Source: Diacronema lutheri (Eukaryota > Haptophyta > Pavlovophyceae > Pavlovales > Pavlovaceae). Taken from it: 64,000 nt of DNA. The translations under genes and the position numbers were made by a program. Each line of letters opens with the position of its first letter. The first letter of the stretch is position 1. The notes under the pieces were generated by a model. It had not been told where the DNA came from. It did no database searches and saw only the letters and a program-made list of their open reading frames with translations. The DNA lies in contig JAGTXO010000008.1 of the NCBI GenBank assembly GCA_019448385.1, positions 310,001 through 374,000 of the forward strand, given 5' to 3'. Below are positions 15,989 to 64,000 of the stretch, piece after piece.

Positions 15989-16039
<51 letters not shown>

Positions 16040-23073: not shown

Positions 23074-23165
<92 letters not shown>

Positions 23166-38381: not shown

Positions 38382-38414
<33 letters not shown>

Positions 38415-40536: not shown

Positions 40537-40629
40537 CAGAGCATGGCGCCCGCCCGCTCGAGCCGGACCTCCGCGCAGCCGGACTCGCCCCGCCCCGGGC
40601 TGCTCTGGCTGGGCGACGTCGTGCGCGCC

Positions 40630-40928
40630 TCAGAACGCCGCGCTCGCCACGCGCACGTAGCCCTCGTCCGGGTCCGGCTCGGGCGCCGCGTCGCGCACCG
40701 AGCGCGACGCGGCCTCGACGCCCGGCGTTTCGGCACGCGAGGCGACGGATGCCTCGTCCGGCCGGCCCCACGGCAGCTGCAGCTCGAGCTGGCGCTGGAT
40801 GATGCGCGGCGTCGCCACGCGCCCGTGCTGCACCTCGCGACGTCGCGCGCGCACGTAGAGCACGATCGCCACCGAGCCGCTGAGGCCCATCATCGCGCCG
40901 AGCAGCACCGAGATTGTGGTCTCATTGT
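40630..40928 (-). CDS. Possible C-terminal exon of a small single-pass membrane protein
   Basis: A frame following a potential acceptor (CCCAAGCAG) encodes one hydrophobic helix (SVLLGAMMGLSGSVAIVLYV) followed by a basic stop-transfer stretch (RARRRE) and a polar tail ending DEGYVRVASAAF. A convincing upstream exon was not found. The region 5' of it is occupied by the divergent helicase gene, so it may be an orphaned fragment next to the inserted element. Confidence 0.3.
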
Positions 40929-41104
40929 CTGCTTGGGCGCGAACGGAAAACGCGCGAAGGGTGGCGACGAAGATCGTTGGGTTGGGTTGGGCCACCGGCT
41001 CCCGAGGATTGCTTGTGGCGCTCGACTGACCGTTGGCCCAGCTTTTTTTTTTCTCGAACCTACTGTGGAGCCGCCTGCAGCGTGATCTCCCGCGCACAAC
41101 GACC

Positions 41105-43480: not shown

Positions 43481-44459
43481 TGGCGAGGCGGCGGCGGCGG
43501 CGCTCGCCGCGGCCGCCGTCGCCGCCGCGCGCGAATGCGCGGCGGCGGCGCGCGGTGGCGGCGAGCGCGGCGGGCGCGGCGCGGACGGCGCGCGCGGCGC
43601 CGGCGGCGGGCGGCGCGCTGGCGGCGGGCGCGCCGCCGGCGCGCGGTGCTGGCCAGCACCCGCCGGCGCGACGCCCGCCGCGCCGCTCGCGCCGACGCGC
43701 AGCCGGCGGATGCTCGCCAGCACCGCGCGCCGCGCGACCGGCCCGCGTACCTGCGCGCCCTTCGCGGGCGCGCAGGGCGGCGCCAATGCGGCCGGCGTGC
43801 AGGGGCCTCAAGCCGGCGCGCCGCCCGCCGCCGCGTGGGTCGCCGCCACGCGCGTGCCGTCGGCGCTGCCGCCGCCCGGCGTCGCGCTCGCGCCGCAGCC
43901 GCCGCCGCCGCCGTCGCCGCCGCCTGCCGCCTGCCGGCAAGCTGGGCAAGCGCGCAGCGGCGGCGACGGCGGTGCGCGATCCGGCGAGCAGGCGGCGCGC
44001 CGCCGAGCCGGGGGCGGGCTCCGTGGGCGACGAGGCTCGCCCGCCACTGGCACCACTCGCGCGCCGAGCGCGCACAACGCGCGGGAGCCCGCTGCGTGGC
44101 CGGACGAAGCTGCGGTCACGGCTGAGGCGGATCCGACACGCCGTGGCCGTACAGCACATCGAGCAGGGAGGCCGTCACATCGACATGAATTTAAGTGCCA
44201 CATCGAGCACGTGATACCCTGCGGACTGGCGCCACTCCTGCCGCCCCTCGCGCCGAGCCCGCGGCGCGCGCCGGGCAGTTGTTGCGCGCGCACGCAGCAC
44301 GCAGCGCGCAGACAAGACGTGAAAAATGTGTCGCGGCGAGGACGAGGGCGAGCCCCGGCGGCTCGGCGAGGCGTCGCATCTCACACACACAGTGGCGCAC
44401 TCCGAACGGCCCGGTCCACATTGCGCCCCCCCCCCCCCCCCCCCCCCCCCCCCCGCGCG
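43481..44459. other. Low-complexity stretch between helicase and Fanzor remnant
   Basis: Follows the last helicase motif. All frames read as Ala/Arg/Gly/Pro-rich low complexity with no family motif. It includes a 29-nt poly(C) run (44426-44454). Part may be the degenerate N-terminal half of the Fanzor remnant downstream, but I cannot support that. Confidence 0.4.
44426..44454 (+). repeat. Poly(C) tract
   Basis: 29 consecutive C immediately upstream of the decayed Fanzor copy. Confidence 0.9.
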
Positions 44460-45256
44460 CGGCTAGCCGACGCGCCGGCCTCTTGCTCGCGGCTGTAGAC
44501 CCGGGCGCTGAGGGCCTCGTACATGCCGGGTGGCCGAGGGACAGAAGCCCGTCTCGGTCACGCTCGTGCAGCGCAAGCGCACTGCGCACGCGCGGCACGC
44601 GACCGCGCGCGAGACGGGCCACCGTGCAGCGCATCGGCCCCCGTCGGCGCCGGGTGCGCCGGGCGGCCGCGCCCTATGCGGCGCGCGGCGTGGAGCACCG
44701 AGGGCGCACGGTGCTGGAGGCCAACGAGCGGGTCAGCTTCACGCGCGCGCACACGCATGTGCGCACGCAGACGCGGCACGTGCACAACCCGCCCGCGCGG
44801 CTGAGCGCGCGGGCGGCGCGGCGACCTCAACTGGCGCGCGTGCACGCTCGCGGCGGCGCGGTTCGAGCGCGTGCATGCGACCGGGCGCGGGTTCCGGCCC
44901 GAGCAGCTGCTCGTTGTGTGCGGCAGCTGGCTGCACCGGTCGCGCGGCGGCGGCCGTGTGCGAGGCAAGCCGCCCGCGCTCGGTGAGGGGCTTGCTTTGG
45001 GCGCTGCGCCGGCTCGACATCGCGACGACCCTCGTACCCAAGCTGCGGAGATCCAACGGATGCTCGCAGCTGCGCGAGGTGAAGCGGAAGTGCGCCCGCT
45101 CCGAGCGCGACGCCCGCCGCGGACGCCGACGGCGCGCCGCTGGCCCGGCCGCGGCTGGCGGGCCGCGGCCGGTGCGGCGCGGCACCGGCACGCTGCAGCC
45201 GTACGTACGCGCGCAGAGCGCCGGGCGGTCGCAGCGCGTGGCGGGTGGCGCGGCGC
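44460..45256 (+). pseudogene. Decayed Fanzor (TnpB-like) nuclease copy
   Basis: Two blocks align with the intact Fanzor domain at 61-63 kb. LLLAAVDPGAEGLVHA (about 44480-44524, Asp codon 44498) matches a RuvC-I DPG motif. LLVVCGSWLHRSRGGGRV (from 44907), then GKPPALGEG, and in a shifted frame GLLWALRRLDIATTLVPKLR (about 44990-45050), parallels LLVCVGKWLRDHKGAQP, GAPP and GLLRELRRRGVAAVFVPEPY of the downstream copy; NGCSQLREVKRKC follows where the zinc ribbon begins. At least one frameshift (about 44990) and loss of the zinc-ribbon end show that it is non-functional. The Glu seen in the other copy (VPEP) is Lys here. It abuts the duplicated 5' end of the giant gene. Confidence 0.6.
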
Positions 45257-45770
45257 GATGCCCGCGGCGGCAAGCGTGACTCAGCGCGGCAACGTCGGGA
45301 GTGGTGCAGGCGGCGTTGAAGCGAACGAGAAGGTGGACGCGGCGGCGATGAGCGGCCACGGCCACACCGGCGCGTCACGGCCGCCGCCTCCGTCGCCTCG
45401 CGCGCGGAAGCGCGCGCGGCCGGCGCGACGGACGACGGCAGGGGCGTCGGCCGTGGCGGGCGTCGTGGGCGCGCCGCGCGCCAGCCACGCCGGCCTAGCC
45501 GGGCCGTCGTCGGCGTCGTCGTCGTCGGCGGCCTCGTCGTCGTCGGCCGGAACGGCGGCGCACTCGGCGCGAAGGAGGCCGACGGCAGCGCCGGCGACGC
45601 GCGCGTGTTGCCGCCTGCCGACAAGCTCGTCGCGCCGTGCGAGCGCGGTGTCGCCGTGTCGCCCTCGGCGGGCGACGTGGCGTGCGGCGCACGCGACGTC
45701 GACGCGGCCGCTGCCGCACGGCGGAGCAGGCGTGGCTGGTGCGGGGGCGGGGGGGGGGGGGGGGGTTGGT
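45257..45770 (+). pseudogene. Duplicated, truncated 5' end of the giant mobile-element gene
   Basis: MPAAASVTQRGNVGSGAGG, EANEKV, then GHGHTGASRPPPP and AVAGVVGA correspond to MPMAASVTKGPGVGDGAGS, DEAIKV, DGCTGTPPLR and VVAGVEGE of the giant gene's N-terminus (from 46074). Similarity is plain at DNA level (GCGGCAAGCGTGAC shared). The copy ends in low complexity and a poly(G) run (45749-45765). It appears to be a leftover from tandem duplication or from insertion of one element copy next to another. Confidence 0.6.
45749..45765 (+). repeat. Poly(G) tract
   Basis: 17 consecutive G, preceded by a GGGGGC run. It marks the 3' end of the duplicated gene fragment. Confidence 0.85.
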
Positions 45771-45936
45771 TGGGGGGTCGGTCGATAAGGTCGCTGGGGA
45801 CAATCTCCCATCAGAAACTCCCGCTTAAACAGCCGCTAGGGCGGCCGCGTCCGGCACGCCCAGCGCCGCGACGAGCGCGATGCATTCCACGAGCGCAGTG
45901 GTACATCGCTCGCCGTGGGGCGCACCACGGGCCTTC

Positions 45937-45943
45937 TATAAAT
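45937..45943 (+). promoter_or_regulatory. Candidate TATA box of the giant gene
   Basis: TATAAAT, within an AT-rich island (TTCTATAAATTTATGAGG), 108 bp upstream of the preferred ATG at 46051. It is one of very few TATA-like sites in this GC-rich window, so chance is less likely. Transcription start is not shown. Confidence 0.5.
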
Positions 45944-46050
45944 TTATGAGGCCAAGAGCGACGTCTTATCACACTTTCAAAAGCAGCGGATCAAAAGGCG
46001 TCTGCCAATCCGCCCGCGAGGACGACCGACGCGGACGACCAGCACGCGCG

Positions 46051-49000
46051 ATGGCGCAGGAGACGACCGGCTCGATGCCCATGGCGGCAAGCGTGACCAA
46101 GGGCCCCGGCGTCGGAGATGGCGCAGGTAGCGACGAAGCGATCAAGGTGGAGGAAACGGCGAAGACGAGCGGCGACGGCTGCACCGGCACGCCTCCTCTG
46201 CGCCCGGCCGCGCGCGCGGCCGGCGCGGCGGACGACGGAGGGGCGGCGGTCGTGGCGGGCGTCGAGGGCGAGCGCGACGCACTCGCCAAGACGGGTGCCG
46301 GCGGCTGCGACGACGACGCTCGCGAGCCGCTGTCGGCCGGCAAGCCCGGCGCACTCGCCGCCGCGGCGACCGTCGGGGGTCTCGGCGAGCTCGTCGGCAG
46401 CCTATGCGCGTGGCTGGCGCACGGCGCGGCTGGTGGCGCCATCGCGGCCATCTCCCCCGGGACGGCCGCGCGCGGAGCAAACGGCACGCCGCAGCGCGCC
46501 GAGCCGCCGGCCGCCGGCGATCCCGTCGCTCCGCACGCGTGCGTCGCCGCTGCGGCGCCCTTGGCGGGCAGCGCGGCGGCGCCGTCGTCGGCCGCGCGCG
46601 ACGCGCAGCGCGGCGTCGCGGGATTCGACGCGGCCGCGCACGCGCACGCGCGCGACGGCAGGCGGGCGGCACGGCGGATGCGCAAGCAAGAGGGGGCGGT
46701 GCACAGGGCCTTCCGCAAGTCCCTCTGGCGCGACGCGACGTTTGTCGAGTTCGTTGAGAAGCTGCGCCCCGACGGCAGCGCGCAGCTGCTCGCGCGCGAG
46801 CCCACGCGGCACGCGGCGGCGGTGCTGTGCGAGCTCGCGCGCGGCCGCGACGGCGCGAGCGGCGCGGCCGGGCTGCTGCACGAGATGAGAGCCGCCGATG
46901 CGCGCGCGCGCGAGGCCGCCAAAGCGGCGGAGGCAGCGGCTTGCGCACGGGACGCTGCGCATCGTGGCAACCGTGGCGCTGGGCGGTGCGGTCTTCGCCG
47001 GCATGTCAGCGCTGGTCGTTGCTTGCGCGGCGCGCACGGCGACCGGTGCGCTTTTTGGGGCCCGCCGCCCGCGGGCGGCCGCGCGCGGAGCCGACGACGC
47101 GCTCGGCACGCTGCAGCGCGCCGAGCCGCCGCCCGCCGACAAGGGCAAGCGCAGGCGCGCCAGAGCCAACGACGACCCCGTCGACGCGGCGCGCAAGGCC
47201 GTGGGCAAGGCGGAGGGCAACTGCCGCAAGGCAGCCCGCCGGCTGCACCTCGCTGCACTGGGCGAGGAGGAGGCGCAGCAGCGCGTGCTCGACGCCGAGG
47301 CGGCGGAGCAGCTGGCGCGCTCGCGCGAGCCGGCCGGCGGCTGGGTAGGCAGCGCGCGCGCGCGCGCGCGCCCCGCCGCGCGCGCGCCCGTCGATTGGCG
47401 TGCGCGCAGCGCAGAACGGCGCGCCAGCTCCGTCACCTGCGCGCCGCCGCGCCCGTGCCCCTCGCGCGCAGGGGCGCCCTGCGGACTTGCGGCTGCAACA
47501 GGCGCACTTTGGCATTCGCGAAGATGCCGACGCGGATGTGCGCCGCGCGCACGAGGCGCTGCGCCGGGCGAGACAGGGTGTGGCGTGCGCCAAGGCCAAC
47601 GTGCGGCAGATGGAGGCGGCGTTGCTCAACGCGACGCGCTGCGCCACCGCGGTGCTCGCGCCGCGTGGCGTGCCGGAGGGTGACGAGCAGGCCGCGGCGA
47701 GAGAGCAGGCGGCGCTGGACCGGGAGGCGCCGCCGGCCGCGGAACGCGCGGCGCCGACGGCGCGCTCGCCCTCGGAGCTGCCGTCCGAGTGGGGCCCGCC
47801 AGCGGTCGGCCGGCGCCCGACGCCGCGTGCACTGTCGCACGCCGCGGGGTGCGGGGACGACAACCCGTTTGCGCCGCTCGCAACCGTCAGCGGTGATTGG
47901 TCGCCCACGCCGAGCTTGCGCCCGCCGTCCTCGCCGCCGCGGCAGCCGCCGTCCGACCGCCGCAGCGCGCAGCGTCGCAGCGCGCGCGCGCGGCCGCCGA
48001 GGCCGACCGTTTCACCCGAGGAAGCGCTCGCAGCCGAGCGCCAGGCGCGCGCGCTGTCGGAGCAGGCGGAGCAGAGGCGCGCCAAAAAGGCCGCCGCCAA
48101 GGCCGCGCGCCGCGCCGCGCGCGCCGCCGACAAGCGGACGGCGCGCGTCGTCCACGCGTGCGTAAGCGCCGCCTTGCGGCGCGTCTGCACGAGCGTCGCC
48201 ACGGGCACGCCGCTCGCCGTGCTCCGCGAGCGCGCCGAGAGGCCGCGCGCGCCGAAGGCGGCGCCCGCGCCGCCACGCCGCGCAGCGGACGGCGGCCGCG
48301 CGCTCCGCCACGCGCGCCGTGCGGCCGATGCGGCGGCGGAGCGCGAGGCGGCGGTGGCGGCCGACGCCGACGAGCGGTTCGAGCGGCAGCCCTCCGCCGC
48401 CCGGTTCGACGGCGGCGATGGCGGCGGAGGCGGCCACGTCGAGGCGAGCGCGCGACCGCGCGCCGGCGAGGCCGGCGAGGCTGGCGCACACGGCGCGCCT
48501 GGCGCAGCGGGGCCCCCGGCGGCGTCGCTCGCGTCGCGCAGCCCGTGTGATGCGCGGCGCACGGCACGCCTCCCGCACGCACGCGCCGCAGCCACCTACG
48601 CAGGCAACGGCGGCTGGGGTGGCAACGTCGGCGGCGACGTGTGCGGCGATTGTTTCGGCGGCGGCGGCGTCCGTCGCGACGCCTGCGGCGGCGGCGACGC
48701 CACCTGCGGCTGCGGCGATGGCGGCGTCGGTGCTGGCGCTGGCGAGGCCCCTGCACACGGTGCGCCGGCGCGCGCGACGGCGTCGCGCTTGCTGCGCTTG
48801 CTCGGCGCGCCACGCGCCGTGCTCGGTGCGATGGCGCACGCCGCGGCCGTGTTGGCGCGCGGCGTGGCCGCAGCCGTCGCTGGCGTGCGCGCCGCCGCGC
48901 GCGCCGTGCGGCGCGCGCGCCGCCGAGCGCCTTGCGCGCGCCGCACGGCTGCGCGGCGCGCTCGCAGCCCGCCGATGCGCGACGTCGACGGCGCCCTGCG

Positions 49001-52000
49001 GCCCTCACAGTCCTGGCCGCGCACACGCCTCGTCTGCGGCCGGCGCCTCGCGCCTCTGCGCCGCGCGGGCGCGCGCCCGCCGCCCGCACACGCCGCGCCG
49101 AGTTCCCGCGCGCGCGCTGCGCAACCCGACAGCGACGCGCCGGCGTGCGCGCCGCGGCGCTCGGCGCCTGTCGGTGCGCCGCCGCGCGCGCGTGGCCTGT
49201 GCGCGGCGCGCGCACGGCGCGTCCTCGACGTCGCCGGCCGCGCGGCGCGGAGCGCGCGCCTCGGCGCGCGCATCACGCGCCAGCGCACGCCGGGCCCGTC
49301 ATCGGAGCCCTGCACGGCCGAGAGCGGCGACGGCGCGGGCGCCGGCGGCATCGGCGCGGCGGCGCCTGGCGCGGCGACGATGCGCGCCACCGGCGCGCGC
49401 GCAGCGCGCGCTGCGGCGGCGGCGGTCGGTGGCGCCTCGCGTCTCGCGCGCCGCGCGATGGCAAGCGCCGCCGCCGCTGCCACCTCCATAGCCGGCGCTG
49501 CCGCCTCCACCGTCGCCGCCGCCGCCGTTGCCATCGGCGCGGCCGTCACGTCACCGGCGTTCGCCGCGGCGCGTGGCATGGCGGCCGCATGCGTCGCTGC
49601 CTGCGCCCGCCCCACCGCCGCGCAGGCGGCCGCGTCGCGCGCGCTCGGCGCGCTCTTCGTGCTCGTCGACGCGGCCGACGCGGCGGGCGACAGCGACGCC
49701 GCGCTCGGCGCGCTCGCGGCCGCGGTCGACGCGACGGAGCTGCGCCCGCCGCCGGCCTTTTGGCGCGCGGGCCGCGCCGCGGCGTACGCACCGCGTCCGC
49801 CGCCCCTCAACTCGGCGCGGCCGCGCTACAACCGGCGCGCGCGCGCACCTAGCCCTCCCGTCGCGGCCGCGCCGCGCAATCTCGAGCGCGCGGTGCGCGA
49901 GCTCACGCGCGCCGCGCGCGCTGAGCGCGAGCGCGCGCCGGCGCCGCGCGGCGCGCGCGGCGGCGTGCTCCACGCGCTGCGCGCGTCGCTCCCCGTGCAC
50001 GCGCGCGTTGCGCTCGGCACGGACGCGGAGCTGCGCGCGGACATTGCCGCGTTCGCGCGCGCGCGCCGCGAGCTGCACAGCTTCACCGACGCCGAGGTGG
50101 CGGCGCTCGCGCGCCCGGACGGGCCGCCGCTGCCCGTGCGGCTCGCGTGCACGGCGGTCGCGCGCGCGCGCGGCGTGACCGTGCTGCTCGACATCGTGCC
50201 GCGCGGCGGCGGCGCACCCGAGCGGCTCGTGTGCCGCGCCCGTCGCCGCGGCGCCGCCACGCGCACGCCACAGCCGACAGCCGCCGTTATCGCGCGCGCG
50301 CCTTGCATAGCGGCGCGCGTTGGCCACACTGAGCCGGCGCGCGCGTGCGCGGGCGGACCGATCGGGGTCGTGCGCCTCCGTTCAGCGCGCCGCCGTTCTT
50401 GGCGTGGGGCGCGGCTCGACGTGCACACCCGCGAGCGGCTGGCCACACCGGTGCCATGCCACGTCGTGGCCTGCGCCGCCGCCTCGGCCATCGGCGCGTG
50501 CGTCGCTCGCGCGCGGCTTGGGCTTGCACGGCTGGCGCGCGCGTGGCCCTGCGCCTCCGCTCCACTAGCCACTGCTGCTGTCGCCTTCGCGCCTGCCGCC
50601 GACGGTGTTTTCCCCGCCGCACTAGCCGCTCCTGCATCCGCCTTCGCGCCTGCCGCCGATTTTCCCGCCCCACTAGTTGCTCCTGCATTCGCCTCCGCGC
50701 CTGCCACCACCGGCGTTTTCCCCGCGCCACTAGCCGCTCCCGCTGTCGCGTCCGCGCCTGCCGCCGCGGGCGTGTCTTCCGCCCCACTAGTCGCTGCCGC
50801 TGCCGCCCTCCAGGCCGCCTCCGACGGCGTTTTCCCCGCCCCACTAGTCGCTGCCGCTGCCGCCTTCCAGGCCGCCTCCGACGCCTTTTCCCCCGCTCCA
50901 CTAGCCGCTGCCGCTGCCGCCCTCCAGGCCGCCTCCGACGGCGTTTTCCCCGCTCCACTAGCCGCTGCCGCTGCCGCCCTCCAGGCCGCCTCCGACAGCG
51001 TTTTCCCCGCCCCACTAGTCGCTGCCGCTGCCGCCCTCCAGGCCGCCTCCGACGGCGTTTTCCCCGCCCCACTAGTCGCTGCCGCTGCCGCCCTCCAGGC
51101 CGCCTCCGACGCCTTTTGCCCCGCTCCACTAGCCGCTGCCGCTGCCGCCCTCCAGGCCGCCTCCGACGGCGTTTTCCCCGCGCCACTAGCCGCTGCCGCT
51201 GCCGCCCTCCAGGCCGCCTCCGACAGCGTTTTCCCCGCCCCACTAGTTGCTCCTGCATTCGCCTCCGCGCCTGCCACCACCGGCGTTTTCCCCGCGCCAC
51301 TAGCCGCTGCCGCTGCCGCCCTCCAGGCCGCCTCCGACGGCGTTTTCCCCGCCCCACTAGTCGCTGCCGCTGCCGCCCTCCAGGCCGCCTCCGACGGCGT
51401 TTTCCCCGCCCCACTAGTCGCTGCCGCTGCCGCCCTCCAGGCCGCCTCCGACGCCTTTTGCCCCGCTCCACTAGCCGCTGCCGCTGCCGCCCTCCAGGCC
51501 GCCTCCGACGGCGTTTTCCCCGCGCCACTAGCCGCTGCCGCTGCCGCCCTCCAGGCCGCCTCCGACAGCGTTTTCCCCGCCCCACTAAATGCTCCTGCAT
51601 TCGCCTCCGCGCCTGCCACCACCGGCGTTTTCCCCGCGCCACTAGCCGCTCCCGCTGTCGCGTCCGCGCCTGCCGCCGCGGGCGTGTCTTCCGCCCCACT
51701 AGCCGCTCCTGCATCCGCCTTCGCGCCTGCCGCCGATTTTCCCGCCCCACTAGTTGCTCCTGCATTCGCCTCCGCGCCTGCCACCACCGGCGTTTTCCCC
51801 GCGCCACTAGCCGCTGCCGCTGCCGCCCTCCAGGCCGCCTCCGACGGCGTTTTCCCCGCCCCACTAGTCGCTGCCGCTGCCGCCCTCCAGGCCGCCTCCG
51901 ACGGCGTTTTCCCCGCCCCACTAGTCGCTGCCGCTGCCGCCCTCCAGGCCGCCTCCGACGCCTTTTGCCCCGCTCCACTAGCCGCTGCCGCTGCCGCCCT

Positions 52001-53167
52001 CCAGGCCGCCTCCGACGGCGTTTTCCCCGCGCCACTAGCCGCTGCCGCTGCCGCGTCCGCGCCCGCCGCCGCGGGCGCGTCTTCCGCCCCACCAGCCATC
52101 GCCGCCGCGCCCGCCGCCAACGCGCGCACCGCCAACGTGCCCGTTGCCAACGAGGCTACCGCCACCGAACCAGCCGCCCTTGAGCTTCCCCTCCAACCCG
52201 CCAACTCGGCGCTGCTTGCGTGGGCGGGCGACGCGGCTGCGCGCCGGCTGGCCGCCGCCGCCGCGAGCGCCGGCCTCCCGCAGGCAGAGGTGGAGCGCAT
52301 CGCCAGCGGCGACATGCTCGCCTCAACCGTCGACGCGTGCTGCGAGGTCGTGCTGCGCGTGCACGGGCAGGCCGGCGGCGGGCATGTCTGCCACGTGCCG
52401 CTCGCCGCGCAACCCGCGGTGTTTCAGGACGACGCCGAGCGCGCCGCGCTGCTGCACCGCCTGCGCAGCGAGGCGACAACGCAGGCTGTCATCGGCGTGT
52501 GGAGCCCGTCGGACGAGCGCGGCGGCGCGGGCGGTGACGACGGCGCGCAGCTCGCCTCCGGCCATTTCACCGCGTTGCGCCTTGTGCGCGTCGCGCGCGC
52601 GGGCGAGCATCGCTACGACGCGGTGCTCGTCGACACGCTCGCGTCGCCCTGCAGGCAGGCGCTCATGCTCGCCAAGGCGATAACTGCCACGCTGCACGCG
52701 GCGGGTCTCGACATTTCGCGCGTGCGCCGCGCGCTGCTGCTCAACGAGGCGGCGCAGCGTGGCGCGACGTGCGGCCTCGCGATAGTGGGCGCGCTCAACG
52801 ACGCGCTCGCCGCGGCGGGCTGCTCGTCCGCGCCGCGCACGTTCAGCGTGGCGGACATGTACGCTGTCGGCGAGCGCCTCCGCGTCGCGCTGACCGGCGC
52901 GGCCAGCGATCGTGCGCCGGGCGGCGTCTGCGCGGTCACGAGCGCGGTGCGCGGCGGGGGCAGCCCCGATGGCGCCGAAACGCCGCCGCAGACGCGCGGC
53001 GCCAAGGCCGCCGCTGGCGTCACCGCCGCCGCCACCGCCGCCGCCACGCCGCCGCCGCCCGCGCTGGGCGCCGCCGCCGCCGCCACCGCCGCCGCCGCCG
53101 CTGCTGCCGCCGCCGTGGCCGCGCCGCCACCGCCGCCACCGCCGCCGCCGGCCGGCGACGCGGGCGA

Positions 53168-53240
<73 letters not shown>

Positions 53241-56200
53241 GCCGCGCGCACGTTCTTGAAGCTCGCGCCCAGGGCGCGCGCGGCCGCCTCGGCGCGTGAG
53301 GCGTTGCGCGCCGCGTGTGCGCGCGCGGACGCGGCGGCGTCGTCACACGCGTCGGCGCCGCACGCGCCCGCCGGTGCGCGCCGCCGGCGGCGCGCGGGCG
53401 CAGGCGAGCTGGCGCTCGCGGCTGCGCGCGCGCTCGCCTCGACGGAGCACGGCGATTTGACGGACGACGCGCTCGAGGCCGCCGTCGAGCAGGAGCTGGG
53501 CGACGAGCGCGGCCAACTGCTGCTGTGCACGCGGGGCGCAGCGGCGCAAAGGCCCGCGCTTTGCCGGCTCCTGAAGCACGCGTGCGCGTCGGCGCGCGCG
53601 GCGAAGCGCGCGCAATTCACGGTGTTCGTCGTGCGCGCGGCCACGCGCGGCGAGCGGGGGGGCGCCGCCGCGAGGCGCGTGGACTCGGTGGTCGAGCTGT
53701 CGTGCGCGCTGCACGAGAAGGCGGGCGCGCTCGGCGGCCTCCAGCGCGTCTGTGTGCGTGGCTTCGCCCTCGAGCGCCGCCGGACACTCGACGCTGGCGC
53801 CGAGGCCGGCGCGTCCGCCATCGGCCAGGACGAGCATGTCGAGGCAGAGGCGGGCGAGGCGTGCGTCGCCGGCGTGACGATGGCCAAGCAGCTGCGTCAG
53901 TTTGCCGAGCAAGCTGCCCGCGACGACGTGCTCTTCCACGTCGCCGTGTCCGAGGCCGACGCCCACGCCCGGCTGGCGCGCGTTGCGGGTGACGATGTCG
54001 GCGCGTACAGCGTCGTGCTCGCAGTCGCCGGGCTCGTCTGGCTGGCCAAGGCCGACGAGGTTGCGCCGGCGGCCGCCCAGCCCGCCGCCGTGCCGCCCGC
54101 CGCCCCGCCTGCTGCCGCCACGTCCGCCGACGCCGAGCGCGACGCCTCGCCTTCCGACCGCCTGCGCGCGCTGACGCTCGCCGTGCGAGTCGCGCTCGCG
54201 CGCGGCGTGCTGCGCCACCTCCTCGCCGACGCGTCGCCGGGCGCGTCCGCGACCGCTGGCGGTAGTTGCGCGACGCCCGTCGAGGCGGCCACGTCCGCCG
54301 CCGCGCCGCCCGCCACGGGCGTCGTGACGAGTGGCGTTGCGGCGGGCGCTGTGGCGGCCGCACCGGCTGCTGCGGGCGGTGCGATGGCGGGTGCATCGCC
54401 CATCACGCGGCCGGCGAAGCGCGCGCGGCGCACGCTCACCGCCGCTCCAGCCGCCTCGGCCGTTGCGGCCGCTGGAGGCGCACGCGCGGGCGCACGCGGC
54501 GCGGCCGGCGCGCCTCGCGCGCGCGCCGCGCGCGCGCCGGCCGAGTACGTCTGGCTTGCCATCGCGCGCCGGATGCTGGCGGCGCGACACGCGGCGGCCG
54601 CGGGCGGCGACTTTGTCGCGTCGTGCGTCGCCGCGATGCAGGCCGAGTACGGCGACGGCTGTGCCGTCGTCGTCGGCGACGCGCCTGATGACGCCTTGGT
54701 CGAGGCTGCGGCGGCGGCGCTGCTCGAGGGCAAGCACGCGGCGGTGAGCCTCGGCTGCGTCGACCGGCCGGCGGTGCTCGTCGTGCAGCGCGCCGTGGAC
54801 GCGCCCACGTCGCGCGTGCACGGGTGGTGCGCGCACGCGGCGGGCGCCGCCGAGTTTGACGAGGGCGCCGCGCACGGCGTGTTCAACGCGATCGTCGAGC
54901 GCGCGTGGGCGCTGCGTCCGGACCCGGCCGACGGCAGCCCGCCGCCCACGCGCACGTGGGAGGTCGAGCAAATCGCTGGCGACGCGCCCGACCAGGCGGG
55001 CGTGGCCGCGCTGCGCGTGCTCTACGCGCTCGTCGCGGCGCACGGCCGCTACCGCTCGGCCGCCGCGCTCTTTGGCGCGCTCGCGCAGCTGCACGCGCCC
55101 GACGCCGCCGGCGCGCGCGCGGAGGTCGTCGCGGCGGCGTGCGCGGTGCCGCCCGGCGCGCGGCCGGGCGCCGCGCCGGCGGCCGCGCGGGACGACGCGA
55201 GGGAGCGCGCATGGGACGGCGCTCAGATCGCCGCGCTCGCCGTCGGCGCGGACGCTGCGCGCAGGCGTGTCGCGCCCGTGCGCGCGCTCGTCGACGCGCT
55301 CGGCACGCCACCGACCTCGGCGATCACGGGCGGGCCGGCGGTCCGGCTCGCGGGCGCGGGCGACGGCGGCCACGGTGCACGGTGGGTGGGCGGGCAGGCG
55401 GCGACGCCCGCCGAGCAGCTGCCGAGGGAGCTGCTGCGCGCCTACCACGAGGCGGTGCTGTGCGTCACGCCCGGCAGCCTCCAGCTCGGCCCGGCGGCGC
55501 TCGACGCGGTCACGCGGCCGCGCGAAAACGACACGCTGGAAGGCCTCCTCGCGCGCGTCAGCTGGCAGTGCGGCGCGAGGGCGAGCACGTGCGCCATGCT
55601 CGCCACGTTTTCCGAGCAGGCGGGCACCGGCTCGCGCGTCGCGCTCAAGGCCCTCCGCACGAGCTCCGACCTGGCCGGGCTGACGGCGGCTGCGGTCGGG
55701 CAGCAGGCGCCGCAGACGCCGCCGCCGCCGCTTCTCGTGATGCTCGGCCGCTGCCCCAGCCCGCTCGTCGGCGGCGGCCTCTTCCCGCCCGACCGCGCGA
55801 CGGGCGAGCCGGCGGTGCACGCGGCGACGTCCGAGCTCGCCGTCGAGCTGCTGCGCGACGCGCGCGCGCTGGCCGGCACGGACGGGCGGCTCGTCGTGCT
55901 GTGCCTCGAGGCGTCCAACCCGCTCTGGTTCTGCCCCAAGGTGCGCGAGCTCGAGCTGCCGCGGACGCGGTCGGACGGCGTGCGCGCGTCCGGCTGCACC
56001 TGCCCTGCGACGTGCAGCGATGCGCGCGGCGCGGCGGGTGGCGCTGCCCGCGGCGCATCGACGCGGCCGGCGGCGCGCGCGATCAACAAGGCGGTGCTCG
56101 ACCACTTCGTCGCGCTTTTCGGCCGCGAGGGCTTCGCGACCTTTGAGTTTGCGGGCGGCGGCGAGGCGAGCTGGCTGTGCGACAGCGCGGCCGGCACGAC

Positions 56201-59200
56201 GACCGTCGCGGCGTGCGCGTCGCTGCCGCCGCGCATGGGCGATGGGCAGCTGGCCATCCGGCGGCACACGCTCGGCACGGGCGCCGACGCGCCGGCGCAC
56301 GCCGTCGTCTCGCTCCGCGTCGCGCACGTGAGCCACGCCATCCGCCGCGCGGCGGACGACGGCGGCGCGCGCGCCGAGCGGATGGCGCGCGCCGCGCGCG
56401 CGTTCTGCGATGTGGCGGCCGCGCTGCGCGTCGACGCGATCCTGGCGGAGGTGCCCGAGGACCGCCCGACGGGCACGCCCTTCCTTGGCGGGCTGCTCAA
56501 ATGTTGGGACAAACGCAACGGGAGCTGGACGGCGCCAGCCACGCTCGCGCTCGGAGACGTGCGCGAGGTGGCCAAGCGGACGGCCGACGCAGCGGCCGGC
56601 CGAGCGGACGAGGTCCCTGCGGCTGGCCGTCCGCAGGTCGCGGCGCGCGCGTGCGCTGGCGCGATTGGCGGCGGCGCGGGCGCGGCGGGCGCCTCGGACG
56701 CTGCGCCGCGTGCACTGGCGGGCGCGTCGGGTGCGCGCACGGACGGCGGCCCTGCCGACGCACCGCGCCAGCTGGAGAGCCGCTACGGCGAGGCGAGCAA
56801 GCTCGACCTACCCCAAGATTCCACTACGGGCCGCGTCCTCGACGCTCGCGAGGCCCAGGACCGCGCGCGCGTGCCTGCTGCGCCCGACGGCACAGCGCTG
56901 CGCCGCGTGCTCGACGCCGTCGGCGCGGGCGCGCCCGCGCAGCGCAGCCCGCGCTGGCACGACGAGCGATGGGAGGAGGTCACGGGCAGCAAGGTTGGCG
57001 ACGTCGTGAACGACAACGCCGGCGTCGCGCACGAGACGCTCACCGACGAGTACGTGCACCGGCGGCGGCGCGAGGTGCGGACCAAGGCGACGACCGCGGG
57101 CATCCTCGGCGAGGCCGTCGCGCTGCGCAAGCTGGCGGCCGCGTACGGCATCACCGTCGTGTGCAACCTGCCGATGGTGCGTGCGGACCCGCACGACAAG
57201 AGCGCGCCGTTCGCCTTCTCGCCGGACGGGCTCGCCATCCTCCCCGAAAACAACGAGCAGGTCCTCGTCGAGGTGAAGACGCTCACCAAGGCGGACGCCA
57301 AGGCGCACGAGGACGGGCCGCCGCAGCCGCACCGCGATCAGCTGCAGCTCGGCATGCACGTCCTCGGCGTGAGCAAAGCGCTCTACGTGCAGTACCTCAG
57401 GCACGAGGACCGGATCGTCGTGCACGTCGTGACGCGCGGCGCCGGCTGGCTTGCATTCGCGCAGCCGAGGGTGCAGGCCTTCTGGGCGCGCGTCGTCGAG
57501 CGGCGCGCGCGGCTCGAGCGCGCTCGCGCCGACCACCCGGCTGCGAGCCGGCGGCACCGGCGGCAGCAGACGCCGGCCGGGCCGCCGCTCGTGCTCGCGC
57601 TGGACGGGCGCATCCCCGCCGCGCGCGCCGCCGCGCTGCACGCCGTCGCGCACGGCACCGCGAGCGCGGCGGCGGTGACGGCGGCGGCGGCGACGGGCGA
57701 CGCGACGGCGTTGCAAGACGCGATCGCGGCGCTGCGCGCGCCCGTCGGCAATGCGGCGATCGCCAGCGCAGCGCGTGCGGAGGGCGCGGCCGTCGAGCGG
57801 GCGATCGCGTACCTCGGGCAGCCGGCGGGCGACGCCGCCGCCCGCGGCACGGCCGAGGCGGCCGAGGAGGAGAGGACGGTCGACGCCGACATCTGCGCGT
57901 TGCTGCACCAGCTCGGCGCGAGCGTGGCGCACGTGCACGTCGAGGACGCGGATTGCGTCACGCGTGAGCACTGGGGCGAGGCGGTGCTCGCTGCAGCGGA
58001 CGACCCGTCGAGCGCCCCCGCCATTTCGAGCGTCATCGTCGCGCACATCGTGCGCCTCGCCGGCTTTGGCGTCGAGCTCCCGCAGTCGATTCGCGTCGCC
58101 CCCAGCACGGCCGACTGGCACGAGGGCTGGCTCGACGTGCAGTGCGTGCTGCTGCGCACGCGCCGGCGCGGGCGGCGCGACGACGACTTTGTGGCCGTCG
58201 TCAGGCGCGGTGGGCGCTGGTTTGCGTGCGAGCCCGGCCGCGCGCGGCGGCTGCAGTGGCGGTCGGTCCTACGCCGCGCGCGCGGCGGCGTCGACGGGAC
58301 CGGCGAGGAGGCGTTCGCGATCGTCTACGTGCGGCGCGGCGACGCGGCCGGCGACGCGGCTGGCGACGCGCAGGCCGCACGGGCGCGCGGCGGGCGCGCG
58401 CGCAGGCGCACGCGCGGCGGCACGCGCAAGCGCAAGCGCGGCGCCTCCGCCGGGCTCGAGGCGGCCGCGCCCGCCGGCGCGCCGGCTGCCGCGCCCGCCG
58501 GCGCGCCGGCGGGCGCTGCTCACCGCCCGCCTGCCATGCGCGCCACGGTCGCCGCGCGCACCACGCGCTCTGTGACCGACGCGCTGCACTCGGCGCCTGC
58601 CGCCACGGTTGCGCCTGTCTTCGACTGGCGCGCCGGCCGCCCGCCCCCCGCCGCTCGAGCCCGCCACCCGCGGCCGCGTGGGCGCGCGCCACCGGGCAAG
58701 GCCTGGGACAGCGTCTCGGGTGCGTGGGCGGACAAGCCGACTGGTGCTGCCGTCGCCGCCGCGCCGCCGCCGCTGCCGCCCGCCGCCGCGCCGCCGCCCA
58801 CCGCCGCGCCGCCGCCCGCCGCCGCGCCGCCGCCCGCCGTCGCGCCGCCGCCCGCCGCCGCGCCGCCGCCGCCGCCGCCACCGGCGGCGCTCAACCGCTG
58901 GCAGCACGTCGGCGCGGGCGGCAGCGCGGCGGGCCGGCGGCTCGCGGCCATCGCACGGCGGCAGCGCGGCGTGCGCGCGCCGCCGCCCACCGCGCGCTTC
59001 CTCGCCACGCTGCCGCCACCGCCACGCGACGGCCTCGCGCGCACGAGCAAGCAGGCGCGCGCGAGGCGCAACGCGGACGGACGGCCGGCGCACGCGCGCG
59101 CGGCCAACGCGCGCGCCTTCTACCGCGGCGTGGAGCTCGGCGTGCACGCGACGCGCGCCATCGTCGACGCGCGCCACGCCGACCTGCCGCAGGCCGTCTT

Positions 59201-62200
59201 CGTGGCGGAGGCGCGGGCGATCGTCGCGCGCTCCGCCGGCGGCGGCGCGCTGCTCGCGCCGGACGACGTGCGCGACCTGTGCGACGCGCAGACGGACGCC
59301 GATCGCGCTGCGATCTGGGCGTCGGTGGGCGCGCACGAGGCGACGCGCATCTTCGCGCTCGTCACGCGCAACGCGAGCTTGGCGGGCGCGGCGCTGCTCG
59401 TGCTGCACACGCCGGCGGGCGCGCCGGCGCGCGCGCTCGGGCTCGTGGCGACGCGCTCGCGCGCGCCGTCGACGGGCGCGCCGCGCGACGCGCACAGGGC
59501 GCTGGTGCAGCGGTTGGACGTGCTGATGGACGCGATCGCCGCGGCGCGAGGCGCGTCGCCGCTCGAGCTCGAACACGCGCTCGCGCCCGAGCCGCAGAGC
59601 GCGTGCAACGCGCGTGCGGCCGCGCTGCTCTGCCTGCAGGCCGTCGCGGACGCGAGCGGCCGTCCCGCCGCTGAGGACGCGCTGGCCGCGCTCGACGACG
59701 CGCGCGGCATCGACCGGCACTGCCACGCCGTCCGGCAGCAGATCGAGGCGAAGCTCGCGTGGCGGCGCGCCGACGGCGCCGTCGGCGTTGACGGCGCCGA
59801 CGGCGCGCCCGCGCTCGCGCCTGCCGCCGCACCGCCGGCGTGCGCGCCGGCGCACGCTGCCGGCGAGGCGGCGGTCGACCAGGCGATCGTCACGCGGGTG
59901 CGCGACGCGCTGCGCGCGTGGGCGACGACTGGCACCGCGCCCAGCGCGGCGGTGCTCGACGACGCCTGCGCCGCGTACACGGCGCGCGCACGCGCGCGCA
60001 AGGACGCGCGCACGGCGCTGGGCCCGACGCGCGCGGCCGAGCTGCTCGCCGCGGCCGCGCGCGGCGGAGCCGACGGGGCGGATGCCGCGCGCGCGCTGCT
60101 CGGCGGCACGCCGCGCCTGCTCGTCGTGCTCCTCTGCGTGCCCGTCGCCGCGCCGTCCGGCGAGCCGCCGCGCCCGGTCGGGCTGCTCGTCGCCGACCGG
60201 CCGACGGACGACTCGCGCCCGGCCGCGCTCGTGCGCTACGACTTTGCGCCGCTCGACGCGGACGTGGCCGTCGCGGTCGGCGCGCATGCCGTCGCGCTGG
60301 CCAGTGCGATCTGGCCGCTGCTCGCGGCCGAGGGGGAGCCGCGGCCATCGCCCGTCGTGCGCTCGCAGCCGCGCGGCGGCGACGATGGCGCGTGTGCGCT
60401 CGCAACGTTCGCGTGCCTCGACGCGCTGATGACCGCCAGCGTCGGCGCGCACGGCCTCGCGGGCGGCGCGGGCATGCTGCCCGCGCTGGACGCGCGAGGC
60501 GCCGCGGCCGCCCAGCGCGAGCGGCAGCTGCGCGCGGCCGCCGAGAGGCTGGGCGGCACGGTCGCTGGGTGGCCGGACACGGGCGCGAGCGCGGCGGGCG
60601 CGAGCGTCGACGAGGAGGCGCGCACGTACGAGGTCGAGGCGGTCGTCGACGAGCGCCGCAAGGCGGGCAAGAAGGTGACGTTCCAGTTCCGGATCAGGTG
60701 GCGGGGCTACGACGAGAGCGCCGACACGTGGGAGCCTGAGGCCAACGTGAGCAGCGACCTCGTCGCCCAGTTCCGCAAGACGCGCGACGAGCAGAAGCGG
60801 CGCGCGGGCGGATCGGGCAGCGGCAGCGGCGGCGCGGGCGCGGCGTCGGCATTGGCGTCGGCGCCGCTTCGCGCGCACGGCGAGTCGGGCGCCGCGGGCA
60901 AGCGCGCCGCGGCGGGTGCCGCCGCGAGCGCGCGCGACGCCGCGGGCGCGCGCGCGCCGAGCGTTCCCCGCGCGCGCGGCGTCGAGCGCGCGCGCGTGGA
61001 CGAGCCCGCTGCGCCGAGCGCGCGCGCCGCCGGCGGCGCGACGGCGCGCACGCGCGGCAGCGTGCTCCCGGGCTTCGTGGTCAAGCGCTCGACGCTCAAC
61101 GCGGGGCCGCAGGCGGTGACGGCGCAGCCCGGTGCGCGGAAGGAGCTGCGGCGCATCGCGGCGGCCGTGCACAGGCTCACGACACAGGCGTACCGCGTCA
61201 TCAACAAGGTGGTGCGCGACGAGGCTGCGGTGGCGAGCGCGCAGGCCGTCGGCGCGGCGTCGGGCGGCCCGTCGACCAGCGTGCACACGTCGACCACGAT
61301 GGACAAGGGATCCGTCCGTGCGATCTTCTCGGCCATCGGCTGGCACAAGGACGAGAGCACGTACGGTGCAGCGCCGCGAGGCAAGCCCGCCGAGCAAGCC
61401 GCCGCGCAGACCAAGGCGGCGACGGCGCGCGCCGTCGGCGAGATGGCCGAGGGCGTCCAGCCCGTCTGCGCGGTGGGCCTCACGGAGATCCTCGAGGCGG
61501 AGGCGACGCAGGTGTCCACCGCGTGCCTGATGCATCCATCGCGCGTCGTGAACGGGCTGCTCCGCGACGTCGTCCGCGCGGCAGTCGAGCGCGACGAGGC
61601 GCTCGTCGCGCTGCCCGAGATGCAGCGAAACGCGCGCGTGCGCGAGCTGTGCGAGCGGCTGCTGCGCGGCGACGTGGAGGGCGCGCGCGTCGGCTGCCCC
61701 GCCGCGCTCGACCGCCACCTGCCCGACATGGTCCTCCACAAGATCGACTACAAGTGCACGCCCACGAAAAGGTGGAACTACGACCGGCACACGACGCGCT
61801 ACTTCCTCGTGCAGATCCGCACCCTGCAGCACGTGGCCGAGGGGCAGGCGCTGCTCTGCCGGCTCGCGCACATCCACACGCAGCTGACCGGACGGCCGCC
61901 GCGGTACAATGTGGCGCCGCTGCGCACGCACAATGTGCGCGCGAGGCGTGGCTGCCGCTGCCGCCGCCGAGCGCCCAAGCGCGCGCGCCGCCGCCGTGCG
62001 CGCCGCCCCGCGGCCAGGTTGGTCACGCGCCCGCGCGCTCGCGCGCCGCGCGCTGCGCGCAGGTGCCGCGCAACGTGCGCCTCGCCGCGAGCGCCATCTG
62101 GGTGACGCTTTCGGATGACGAGCGCAAGGAGCTGCGCGCGCGGCTCAAGGCGCTGGACCTGCGCGACCACGATGGCGAGCCGATCAAGTGGACAGGCACA

Positions 62201-63787
62201 AACGGCAACACCCCGCCGATGTCGGACGTGCGCGTCAGGTACGCGGTCTTTGCGACGCGCTTCGACATCTCCAACCGCGTCTTCGACTACGCCGGGCGCG
62301 AGCGGCCGCCGGCCGATCTGCCGTGGCACGCGCGGCGCTCGTGGGTTGGCCTCGCGCCGCTGCCGCGCGTGCCGCTCCCGGGCCGGCAGCCCGTCAAGTC
62401 GGTGGTGACAGATGGCGTCGCCGTGCACGCCGTCGGGACCGTCCTCGTGCCGAAGGCGCAGGCGCCGGCCGGCGGCTCGGGCGTCCTGCACCGCTGGCGC
62501 CGGCCGGACGGGCGCATCGCCGTCGCGCTCGGCTCCGAGCTGCGGCGGGCGATCGACGTCGAGGCGGCGGTCGTCGTCGCGGCCGACCCGAACATGGGCA
62601 ACATCACCACCTACTCTGCGCACGTCGGGCGGGCGGCCGTCTGGCGGCAGTTCACGCAGCGCGCGCGCGCGCGCGCCGCGGGCTTTGCGCGCGAGACGGC
62701 CAAGACCAACGCGGCGCGGCGGCGCGTGCGCAAGGACGGGCGCGGCGAGGAGTTCAGCGTGGAGGCGGACGAGGCGCGGCTTGGCGAGGCGCACAGCGCC
62801 AAGGTGCTCGACGCGGGCAAATACATCGCCTTCCACCGCGAGAGCGCGCGGGTGCGCGAGCGCGCCGCCGAGCACGTGTACGACGCGCCGGCGCGCCGGA
62901 AGGAGCGCTGGCGGCGCGACAGCGGCGGGCGGTCCAACGCGGCGCGCGTCGCCGAGGCGCTCATCGCGGCGCACTGTGTCGACGGCGTGACGCGCGACCG
63001 GCTGCTCGTGTGCGTGGGCAAGTGGCTGCGCGACCACAAGGGCGCGCAGCCCAAGGGCGCGCCGCCCGCCTTCCAGGTGGGGCTGCTGCGCGAGCTGCGG
63101 CGGCGCGGCGTCGCGGCCGTCTTCGTGCCCGAGCCGTACACGTCGATGCACTGCTCGATGCCGCGGCTCGCCAAGGGCGGCAGGCTGCAGCGCTGCGGCG
63201 CGGAGCTCGCGCAGAACCCGCGCCTGCCCGTGGCAAAGGGCGGCACGCGCACGGTGCACGCGCTCGTCATCTGCCCGGCGTGCAACGGCGGCAAGAAGCC
63301 CGTGCACCGCGACTACAACGCCGCGCGCAACATCTTCTACGACGTGCACGACATGGCGGCGCACGCGGCCGGGCGCGACACCACGTCGACGCCTGAGCGC
63401 TTTGCCCTCGTGCTCGCCTGGTGGGCGCGCGGCGAGGTGTGGGAGCGTGAGGAGCGCATGGTGCACGGCGAGGGCGACGACTGCGACGACGAGTGCGACG
63501 GCGACGACGAGGGCGACGACGAGGGCGACGACGACGACGACGACGATGGCAGCGGCGACGGCGGCGGCGGCGAGGGCGACGGCGACGGCGACGGCGACGG
63601 AGGCGGCGGCGGCGACGACGACGATGACGGCGGGGGAGGCGGCGGCGGCGACGGCGGTGGCGACGACGGCGGCGGGCGCGGCGGCGGTGGCGGCGGCGGC
63701 TCTCGCGCCCGCACCCCCGCCCGCGGAGCTGCCAGCGCCAGTGCCGGCGGCGGCAGCGCGCGCGGGCCGAAGCGCGGCCGGCGTTGA
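46051..63787 (+). CDS. Giant multidomain mobile-element protein: C48 peptidase-like, YqaJ nuclease, chromodomain, Fanzor
   Basis: Frame 46051 to about 46940, then a second frame to 47344, an intron 47345-47471 (GTAGGC...GCGCAG) joining PAGGW to GRPADLR, a huge exon 47472-61934 (4821 codons), an intron 61935-62062 (GTGCGC...CGCAG, phase 0) joining LRTHN to VPRNVRL, and a last exon to 63787. The change of frame at about 46930-46970 has no evident intron. Order of parts: Ala/Arg-rich coiled N-terminus with a hydrophobic segment (VATVALGGAVFAGMSALVV); 27-unit repeat array (50568-52094); C48-like peptidase; poly-Ala; further peptidase-like segments; an unassigned region (55.4-56.6 kb); YqaJ exonuclease; a segment resembling a ubiquitin-peptidase C-terminus; Pro/Ala repeats; two more peptidase-like segments; chromodomain; Fanzor; acidic/Gly-rich tail. 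I infer that it drives a giant transposon. Whether it works as one chain, or is cleaved by its own peptidase domain, is unknown. Confidence 0.7.
50568..52094 (+). repeat. 27-unit, 57-bp coding tandem array
   Basis: 25 units of 57 bp and two of 51 bp. Three main unit types are VAAAAALQAASDGVFPAPL, VAPAFASAPATTGVFPAPL and AAPAVASAPAAAGVSSAPL. Blocks of five to six units are themselves repeated (units 7-12, 13-18 and 22-26), so the array grew by higher-order duplication. Every unit length is divisible by three and keeps the giant frame open. Expect copy-number variation and possible assembly collapse. Confidence 0.95.
52200..52910 (+). other. C48 (Ulp1/SENP-like) cysteine peptidase domain in the giant protein
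   Basis: Catalytic pattern of the Ulp1 fold: His (codon 52563) in SGHFTALRLV, Asp (52632) in YDAVLVDTLASP, Gln (52755) and Cys (52770) in NEAAQRGATCGLAIVGAL. His-Asp and Asp-Cys distances (23 and 46 residues) are close to those of Ulp1. The family removes SUMO/ubiquitin-like modifiers or processes polyproteins, and Ulp1-like domains are common in giant eukaryotic transposons. Confidence 0.65.
53173..53241 (+). repeat. (GCC)n tract coding poly-Ala
   Basis: About 23 GCC triplets giving an uninterrupted alanine run between the first and second peptidase-like segments, preceded by a Pro run (53129-53150). Confidence 0.9.
55400..56570 (+). other. Uncharacterised globular region of the giant protein
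   Basis: Well-conserved-looking, non-repetitive sequence (LLRAYHEAVLCVTPGSLQLG, LVMLGRCPSPLVGGGLFPPD, LVVLCLEASNPLWFCPKV, VDAILAEVPEDRPTGTPFLG). The alternation of hydrophobic strands with charged turns suggests an alpha/beta fold, possibly another nuclease or transposase core with acidic residues (LEASN, EVPED). No family recognised. Confidence 0.4.
56920..57520 (+). other. YqaJ / lambda-exonuclease domain in the giant protein
   Basis: All family motifs are visible in order: HDERWEEVTGSKVGDVV, ILGEAVALRKLAA (Glu codon 57111), FSPDGLA (Asp 57225), VLVEVKT (Glu 57270 and Lys 57276), and RDQLQLGMHVLG. These are the PD-(D/E)xK metal ligands and the helix that follows. The family degrades one strand of duplex DNA 5'-3' and supplies tails for single-strand annealing, a plausible step in integrating an element. 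Confidence 0.82.
60624..60800 (+). other. Chromodomain in the giant protein
   Basis: TYEVEAVVDERRK, FQFRIRWRGYDES and DTWEPEANV form a classic chromodomain of about 55 residues followed by a basic helix. Cage aromatics are in place: Tyr (codon 60627), Trp (60699), Tyr (60708), Trp (60729). Chromodomains read methylated histone tails; in transposon integrases they direct insertion to heterochromatin. Confidence 0.88.
61071..63430 (+). other. Fanzor (eukaryotic TnpB/OrfB-like) nuclease domain
   Basis: The N-terminal helical part starts GFVVKRSTLNAG and LRRIAAAVHRLTTQAY, typical of Fanzor/TnpB. After the intron comes SVVTDGVAVHAVG, then RuvC-I VVAADPNMGN (Asp 62585). LLVCVGKWL sits where RuvC-II is usually found, FVPEPYTSMHCS carries Glu 63131, a four-Cys zinc ribbon follows (63152, 63194, 63272, 63281), and RuvC-III is HRDYNAARN (Asp 63311). 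Family knowledge: Fanzors are RNA-guided DNA endonucleases carried by eukaryotic transposons and giant viruses. The tail after 63430 is Asp/Gly-rich. Confidence 0.8.
63475..63710 (+). repeat. GAC/GGC-rich low-complexity tail coding Asp-Gly runs
   Basis: Dense GGCGAC and GACGAC repeats give an acidic, glycine-rich C-terminus of the giant protein just after the nuclease. Confidence 0.85.
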
Positions 63788-64000
63788 CGCACGGCCGAGC
63801 CGCGCAGCGGTCGACGCTTTGCGGGCTCTGCCCAGGTCGCGCGCGGCTGGCGACGCGTGCCGCGCGCGGCACGACCGTGCACGCCGCCACCCGTGGCCGA
63901 GCGCGCCGCACCAGCCGGCCCGCTCCAACCGCCGTGCGGATCACGGACGCTCGCTACGGCTCGTCGGCGCGCGTCACCTGCGCCGGCGGCCACGGCGCCG
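63788..64000 (+). other. 3' flank of the Fanzor gene, cut by the window edge
   Basis: No coherent gene is seen. In TnpB/Fanzor systems the guide RNA is transcribed from the end of the gene and the flank beyond it, so this is where one would look. It is GC-rich with several short inverted repeats, but no conserved scaffold could be identified by eye. Confidence 0.25.

Follow-up and report, generated by a model that had tools for sequence, protein, structure and literature searches.

Fanzor nucleases are known from many transposons, and their role there is open. The closest described systems are CRe-1, CRe-2, and CRe-3 of Chlamydomonas, which are Helitron2 elements bearing a Fanzor1 protein; in the available portion of the source (PMC3627910), CRe insertions with exact 5′ ends are free of target duplications and the remaining insertions have duplications of variable kind, and Helitron2 elements are characterized by asymmetrical terminal inverted repeats and terminal hairpins. 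The same portion gives the Fanzor signature as D-X(125,275)-[TS][TS]xx-C4 zinc finger-X(5,50)-RD. According to the accessible text of PMC10711439, an alternative Glu sits six residues ahead of the first zinc Cys in Fanzors, and the sequence DPG at RuvC-I is near exclusive to them. The most abundant repeat of Auxenochlorella is an uncharacterized Fanzor-encoding element (PMC12633428, in the sections available). Fanzor-bearing algal transposons are already known.

The element analyzed here, from the haptophyte Diacronema lutheri, resembles the CRe elements (PMC3627910, available portion) in being an algal DNA element with a multi-exon Fanzor1-type protein, in having exact-5′-end insertions that lack target duplications, and in showing more 3′ than 5′ ends. 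In contrast to them, it is ~31 kb long, its Fanzor is fused with an exonuclease and a chromodomain, a helicase is on board, no Rep domain was detected in the frames scanned, and the terminal hairpin pattern was not recovered. Compared by description with the Auxenochlorella repeat (PMC12633428, same sections), it is likewise an abundant Fanzor-encoding element of a compact algal genome, but no fusion is mentioned for that repeat. Polyproteins of chromodomain LTR retrotransposons (PMC6338049, accessible part) are also mobile-element chains with a chromodomain, whereas the frames scanned of the Diacronema element gave no match to a reverse transcriptase or an integrase. The Fanzor nucleases treated in PMC10711439, PMC10432273, and PMC11423790 share with it the alternative Glu, the D-E-D triad, four zinc cysteines, and the RD motif; they differ in having DPG rather than DPN at RuvC-I and in their guide RNA, none having been seen here, and the accessible portions of these three papers do not mention an exonuclease-chromodomain fusion.

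The initial annotation of this DNA, made from sequence alone, knew of no described element with its domain order in one chain. No description of a Fanzor-exonuclease-chromodomain fusion was found in the open-access literature searched, to the extent that its text was available. In the available main text of the D. lutheri genome paper (PMC8379373), words beginning with transpos- and the word Fanzor are absent. A single element undescribed in that literature makes up an appreciable part of a compact genome already published, and a Fanzor placed in one chain with a resection nuclease and a chromatin reader, in a young and successful element, would make the role of the Fanzor in transposition testable.

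A young 31-kb DNA element with fixed short ends

The stretch of DNA analyzed (hereafter, the window) comprises 64,000 nucleotides, C71:310001-374000 of the 43.49-Mb, 103-contig D. lutheri assembly. Its right part is occupied by a plus-strand element whose anatomy, together with that of the giant chain that it encodes, can be given with high confidence (Table 1).

Table 1. Features of the element in the window; coordinates are window positions unless a contig is named
Feature	Position	Strand	Remarks
Mobile element, ~31 kb in full form	37663..64000, continuing 192 bases past the window	+	Limits set by abrupt loss of similarity to other copies
Element ends	Left CTATATACGGCGCGG..., right ...GGCTTGACCATCTATAC at G000:C71:374192	+	Exact end counts
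Imperfect palindrome, internal, left part of element	39662..40533	.	Arm pairs 207 + 174 nt, 97% complementary
PIF1-like helicase gene	41030..42903	+	Two or more coding frames, including 41030-42415 and 41377-42903
Replacement segment, ~2 kb	44083..46076	+	Stands where the full-length form has 7.7 kb
Exon 1 remainder, giant gene	46077..47344	+	Frameshifted near 46939 relative to four full-length copies
Intron 1	47345..47471	+	GT-AG, phase 0; inferred from reading frame alone
Exon 2, giant gene	47472..61934	+	4,821 codons in window copy
Tandem-repeat tract, Ala-rich, in exon 2	50769..52148 (approximate limits)	+	Read in the window copy
Segment A, C48 candidate	52149..52988	+	His, Asp, Gln, Cys-Gly in protease order; no profile support
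RecE/YqaJ-type exonuclease domain	56934..57506	+	SPDG...EVK...QLQ motif, profile matches
Chromodomain	60627..60779	+	Pfam E 6.4e-12; HP1 alignment
Fanzor N-terminal half	61062..61934	+	End of exon 2; assigned by position before intron 2
Intron 2	61935..62062	+	GT-AG, phase 0; inferred from reading frame alone
Exon 3	62063..63787	+	Fanzor C-terminal half, Asp/Gly-rich tail, stop

Exact matches to the two ends number 186 (left) and 207 (right) across the genome, and the many copies combine identical ends with differing flanks, as is characteristic of a DNA transposon. When each left end was paired with the nearest same-strand right end within 45 kb, using 96 left and 100 right ends among the matches listed (four left ends on C47-C49 being excluded), 66 of the 96 left ends found a partner. 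Among these pairs, 30 span 30.9-31.1 kb, 9 span 29.0-29.5 kb, 7 span 26-27 kb, 12 span 21.4-22.3 kb, and 8 have other lengths; together they account for 1.86 Mb, or 4.3% of the assembly. The copies are closely similar, with 99-100% identity over the Fanzor exon in the 98 copies scored (412 candidates) and at least 99% over the YqaJ domain in the 150 copies scored (233 candidates). The DNA element, ~31 kb in length, is young, has short termini of fixed sequence, and has been amplified in a haptophyte genome. Protein searches for relatives elsewhere returned the same sequences and one short helicase match.

The right ends read CATCTATAC with few exceptions, and the left ends are more varied: CTATATACGG is present at 40 of the 96 compared, and TATATAGG at 14 of 19 picked from the other 56. 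Flanks were compared for 34 copies, in three of which the right flank is at most one base long, leaving 31 testable insertions; in 30 of these, a target duplication of more than 6 bases is absent, and the lone insertion with a 12-13-base duplication adjoins sequence that at other places resembles the left end of another family. The mean longest match between flanks was 4.67 in a first set, against 3.97 in re-paired flanks (maximum, 5.27), and 3.74 against 3.78 in a second, values that do not leave the range of re-paired flanks. A G directly follows the right end CTATAC in 13 of 15 copies of the first set and 10 of 17 of the second, that is, in 23 of 32 copies ending in CTATAC or a one-base variant of it. 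No target sequence beyond this G preference is shared by the flanks compared, so the element does not insert by guidance to a single site.

Two other readings of the ends were rejected. A site-specific recombinase with CTATATACGG as its host target does not fit, because CTATATACGG occurs 125 times as against 186 left ends and is carried by the minority of left ends given above. The element is not a chromosome cap: TTAGGG arrays stand at other contig ends, and on contig C29 the element and such an array occupy opposite ends. By hand count among the matches listed, ~13 contigs break off exactly at the right end of the element or a few bases from it (including C1, C3, C5, C6, C8, C10, C12, C13, C26, C29, C32, C43, and C71) and three (C32, C49, and C72) break off at its left end, an asymmetry with a nominal two-sided p of 0.02; these contig ends are probably assembly breaks at repeats. 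At five places (L098, L101, L105, L108, and the right flank of L039), CTATATACGG is followed by AGCGTC..., perhaps as the left end of a related element family. Diverged left ends of the element itself were seen at L100, L107, L109, L112, and L114, and also at L116, where the match extends over 257 bases only.

Comparison with full-length copies shows that the window holds a 26.5-kb variant. In the full copy at C9:2136663-2167711, a PIF1 helicase, a ubiquitin-hydrolase-like protein (Pfam UCH, E 4.3e-8), and the giant gene are encoded; the window copy has a 2-kb segment in place of 7.7 kb that hold the gene for this ubiquitin-hydrolase-like protein together with the beginning of exon 1. The 2-kb segment recurs at 99.3% in two other copies (on C5 and C3), which marks the window copy as a replicated variant. 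Among the variant members, exon 1 was read in the window copy, where a 2-base deletion near 46.94 kb frameshifts what remains of it. A 21.6-kb copy on C43 retains the YqaJ domain and also the region that begins ahead of the chromodomain and runs to the Fanzor. The palindrome of nearly 900 bases is matched in part, in reverse, by the copy on C30.

Domains of the predicted giant chain

The single giant frame that the initial annotation described is real. Positions 47349-62105 are open on the plus strand for 4,918 codons, as compared with a median of 837 and a maximum of 1,467 codons for the longest plus-strand frame in 200 simulated 64-kb sequences (order-2 Markov, modelled on the element part of the window). 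In a full copy, G+C by codon position shows one coding phase throughout exon 2, the tandem-repeat tract excepted, with a shift of phase at either end, which fits two putative phase-0 GT-AG introns. In all four full-length copies, the corresponding sites preserve the frame; intron 1 is 127 bases long in the window copy and 133 in those four, and the 128 bases of intron 2, as measured in the window copy, separate Fanzor halves that are in phase. The proposed start at 46051 has to be abandoned, as this position lies inside the 2-kb replacement segment and the ATG of full-length copies is ~2.4 kb upstream of the base matching window position 46077. Read as three exons (1,225, about 4,400, and 574 codons), the giant gene of each of the four full-length copies specifies one predicted, stop-free chain of 6,196-6,213 residues, in which long low-complexity stretches separate the exonuclease (RecE/YqaJ), the chromodomain, and the Fanzor at the C-terminus. 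Exon 2 of the window copy exceeds that of full copies by 735, 285, and 228 bases, all whole codons.

The exonuclease assignment is based on both profile and motif, the latter of the form D...ExK...QxQ. Against the PHROG family of RecE-like phage exonucleases, the domain scores E 6e-18. Against Pfam YqaJ, with its cut-off of 22 bits, the score is 28.2 bits in a sister copy and falls below the cut-off in the window copy, both as part of the whole chain (15 bits, E 0.031) and as a separate piece (20.1 bits, E 8.1e-4); TIGR03033 is likewise matched by the window copy below its cut-off (E 1.4e-5). The predicted structure of this piece has a pLDDT of 48.1 and a best Foldseek E of 0.26. The likeness to the RecE and lambda-exonuclease (YqaJ) family lies in the profile and in the motif listed in Table 1; in contrast to that family, the Diacronema domain is embedded in a ~6,200-residue chain of a eukaryotic element. 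In the chromodomain, alignment with HP1 shows that the aromatic cage residues are retained.

For the Fanzor, the Pfam TNB domain is matched over its cut-off (E 4e-6), and no profile match was found for the N-terminal half. The published signature is present in exon 3, with Asp 175 followed by the zinc cysteines 364, 378, 404, and 407 and by RD 8 residues on; the RuvC Asp lies at window position 62585, the alternative Glu at 63131, and the last Asp at 63311, after the cysteines. The alternative Glu precedes the first zinc Cys by six residues (EPYTSMHC). RuvC-I reads DPNMG, so that the protein is best termed Fanzor-like. Compared with another Fanzor of the same genome (L118, G000:C9:377500-386500), the C-terminal half scores E 1.7e-8 and the N-terminal half 0.12. 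L118 itself has DPG and the alternative glutamate, and a repeated hydrophobic segment lies upstream in the same 1,681-codon frame. In all, 31 loci of the genome outscore the Fanzor of the element with PF07282; at least one of them (L120) is a relic of the same element, and 13 have an identical score of 43.9 bits, in frames of up to 1,779 codons. Predicted RNA folds at the right end are no more stable than those of shuffles (z -1.49 and -0.16), and in the search for a guide RNA every Rfam family stayed below its threshold.

The fourth domain of the initial annotation, a C48 peptidase, was not recovered. Its profile, PF02902, picks out nine places in other parts of the genome but nothing in the window copy; segment A, the candidate stretch, has no relative in Pfam, PDB, or PHROG searches, and its relic copy gave no C48 profile match; and the His-Asp-Gln-Cys motif is not above chance (4, as compared with a shuffle mean of 3.8). 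A C48 (Ulp1) identity of segment A is therefore not supported. The AlphaFold model of this segment is too poor for use (pLDDT 44.7). The check by profile search named in the initial annotation thus recovered YqaJ, chromodomain, and Fanzor, which do occur in that order in one chain of a mobile element, whereas the C48 domain and, with it, C48 protein processing as part of the proposed single machine are not supported. Multiple protease-like repeats within the chain were also considered and rejected, the phmmer signal being at or below that of shuffled controls; with hhalign, segment D against the ubiquitin-hydrolase-like protein and one other pair gave E 0.005-0.007 over 27-35 residues. In exon 1 of a full copy, L028:4175-5077 resembles by eye a restriction-endonuclease core (GEVTTVHF), with no profile support.

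Constraint on the giant chain

Long frames are common among the copies: of the 150 copies scored, 94 have the YqaJ domain in a frame that stays open for 4,400 codons or more and 112 for 4,000 or more, the remaining 38 having shorter frames. Exon 2 is free of stops in five of five copies, which is weak evidence because only 2.4 stops were expected from the observed substitutions. Within exon 2, most of the insertions and deletions that distinguish copies comprise whole codons, whereas most of those in two non-coding control stretches do not; one compound indel, with pieces of 29, 4, and 18 bases, sets the copies C9a and C30 apart from the other three and keeps the overall frame. Among four young copies, dN/dS is 0.97 overall and ranges by region from 0.21 (N-terminal half of the Fanzor, 11 changes) to 1.58.

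Comparison with the diverged relic L120 (G000:C49:212500-216800) gave dN/dS of 0.44 for segment A in frame, against 1.06 and 1.35 in the shifted frames. Two Fanzor pieces gave 0.35 and 0.78, and the stretch 3900-4483 gave 0.79, much as in its shifted frames (0.69 and 0.78). This pattern indicates protein-level constraint for only part of the chain. In the relic, a ubiquitin-hydrolase-like piece stands directly before segment A, and the chromodomain region is deleted ahead of the Fanzor.

Mechanism and competing explanations

Besides the giant gene, the element carries a helicase whose frames match Pfam PIF1 (E 1.7e-15 and 1e-24), with no Pfam family matched by its N-terminal part. No transposase was found in the frames scanned, namely the giant frame and 20 of the 57 frames that a full copy has in its first 12 kb. 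New copies would then be made by an unassigned segment of the chain, by another frame, or by a cut-resect-copy route. The best explanation, on which confidence is evenly poised, is that of a ~31-kb element with a helicase, a ubiquitin-hydrolase-like protein in the full copy, and the giant chain, in which the chain would function as a single DNA-processing machine. Its proposed roles in resecting ends, targeting chromatin, and RNA-guided cleavage are predicted from domain identity. The chromodomain would bring the giant chain to methylated chromatin; DNA would be cut by the Fanzor, with a guide RNA supplied by the right end of the element; the RecE-like domain would resect the break; and the helicase would drive strand separation for replicative copying of the element. 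This cut-resect-copy mechanism is offered tentatively, as a possibility short of probable. It is improbable that the element represents a new transposon class that dispenses with a classical transposase and combines Fanzor cutting, RecE-like resection, and chromatin docking with break-induced, helicase-assisted replication.

Alternatively, the giant chain could be a polyprotein, cut by a protease of the element into separate nuclease, chromatin, and Fanzor proteins. The protease could be the ubiquitin-hydrolase-like protein, which belongs to a protease family and is encoded in the full copy, or a C48-like segment A, whose His, Asp, Gln, Cys-Gly order is kept in the diverged relic, and the long low-complexity stretches between domains also favor cleavage. 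However, the C48 profile is absent and the motif order is at chance, the variant class of the window has replicated though it lacks the ubiquitin-hydrolase-like gene, and no cleavage site was recognized in the chain; a polyprotein is accordingly possible but unlikely.

That the element is a derived rolling-circle element of Helitron2/Helentron type, with a Rep protein diverged beyond recognition and an accessory Fanzor as in the Chlamydomonas CRe elements, is also judged unlikely. The PIF1 helicase, the near-uniform lack of target duplications (with the one exception noted), and the excess of right over left ends speak for such an origin, but neither the giant frame nor the 20 frames scanned in the first 12 kb yielded a Rep (HUH) match, terminal hairpins and asymmetrical inverted repeats were no better than in plain shuffles, and the N-terminal part of the helicase matches no Pfam family. 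A Crypton would carry a tyrosine recombinase, and no such domain was found in the same frames.

It is doubtful, too, that the length of the frame is due mainly to the very high G+C of the genome and that each domain comes from a transcript of its own or from an internal start. Long antisense frames do occur (1,291 codons in the same region), and a public source predicts a 570-residue protein starting in exon 3. Against this, the frame far exceeds the simulated maximum and most scored copies keep it at 4,400 codons or more; across intron 2 the two halves of the Fanzor stay in phase, both in the window copy and in four of four full copies; and frame residues 4381-4650 contain no in-frame Met, so that a Fanzor translated from a separate ATG would be missing its beginning. 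That the element is a piece of an endogenous giant virus, or derives from one, is scarcely credible, for although Fanzor genes are present in giant viruses (PMC3627910, available portion) and the accessible text of a Mimiviridae paper (PMC3620924) contains the words YqaJ and Ulp1, capsid and polymerase are absent among the frames scanned, three scans of viral contigs gave no relative, and many copies share the same two ends.

Outside the element, frames of ~2,100 codons at 11737-18126 (plus strand) and 21360-27659 (minus strand) have no Pfam match at E 0.01. On the minus strand at 30268-34710, the window encodes a membrane transport protein (Pfam Mem_trans, E 9.3e-16).
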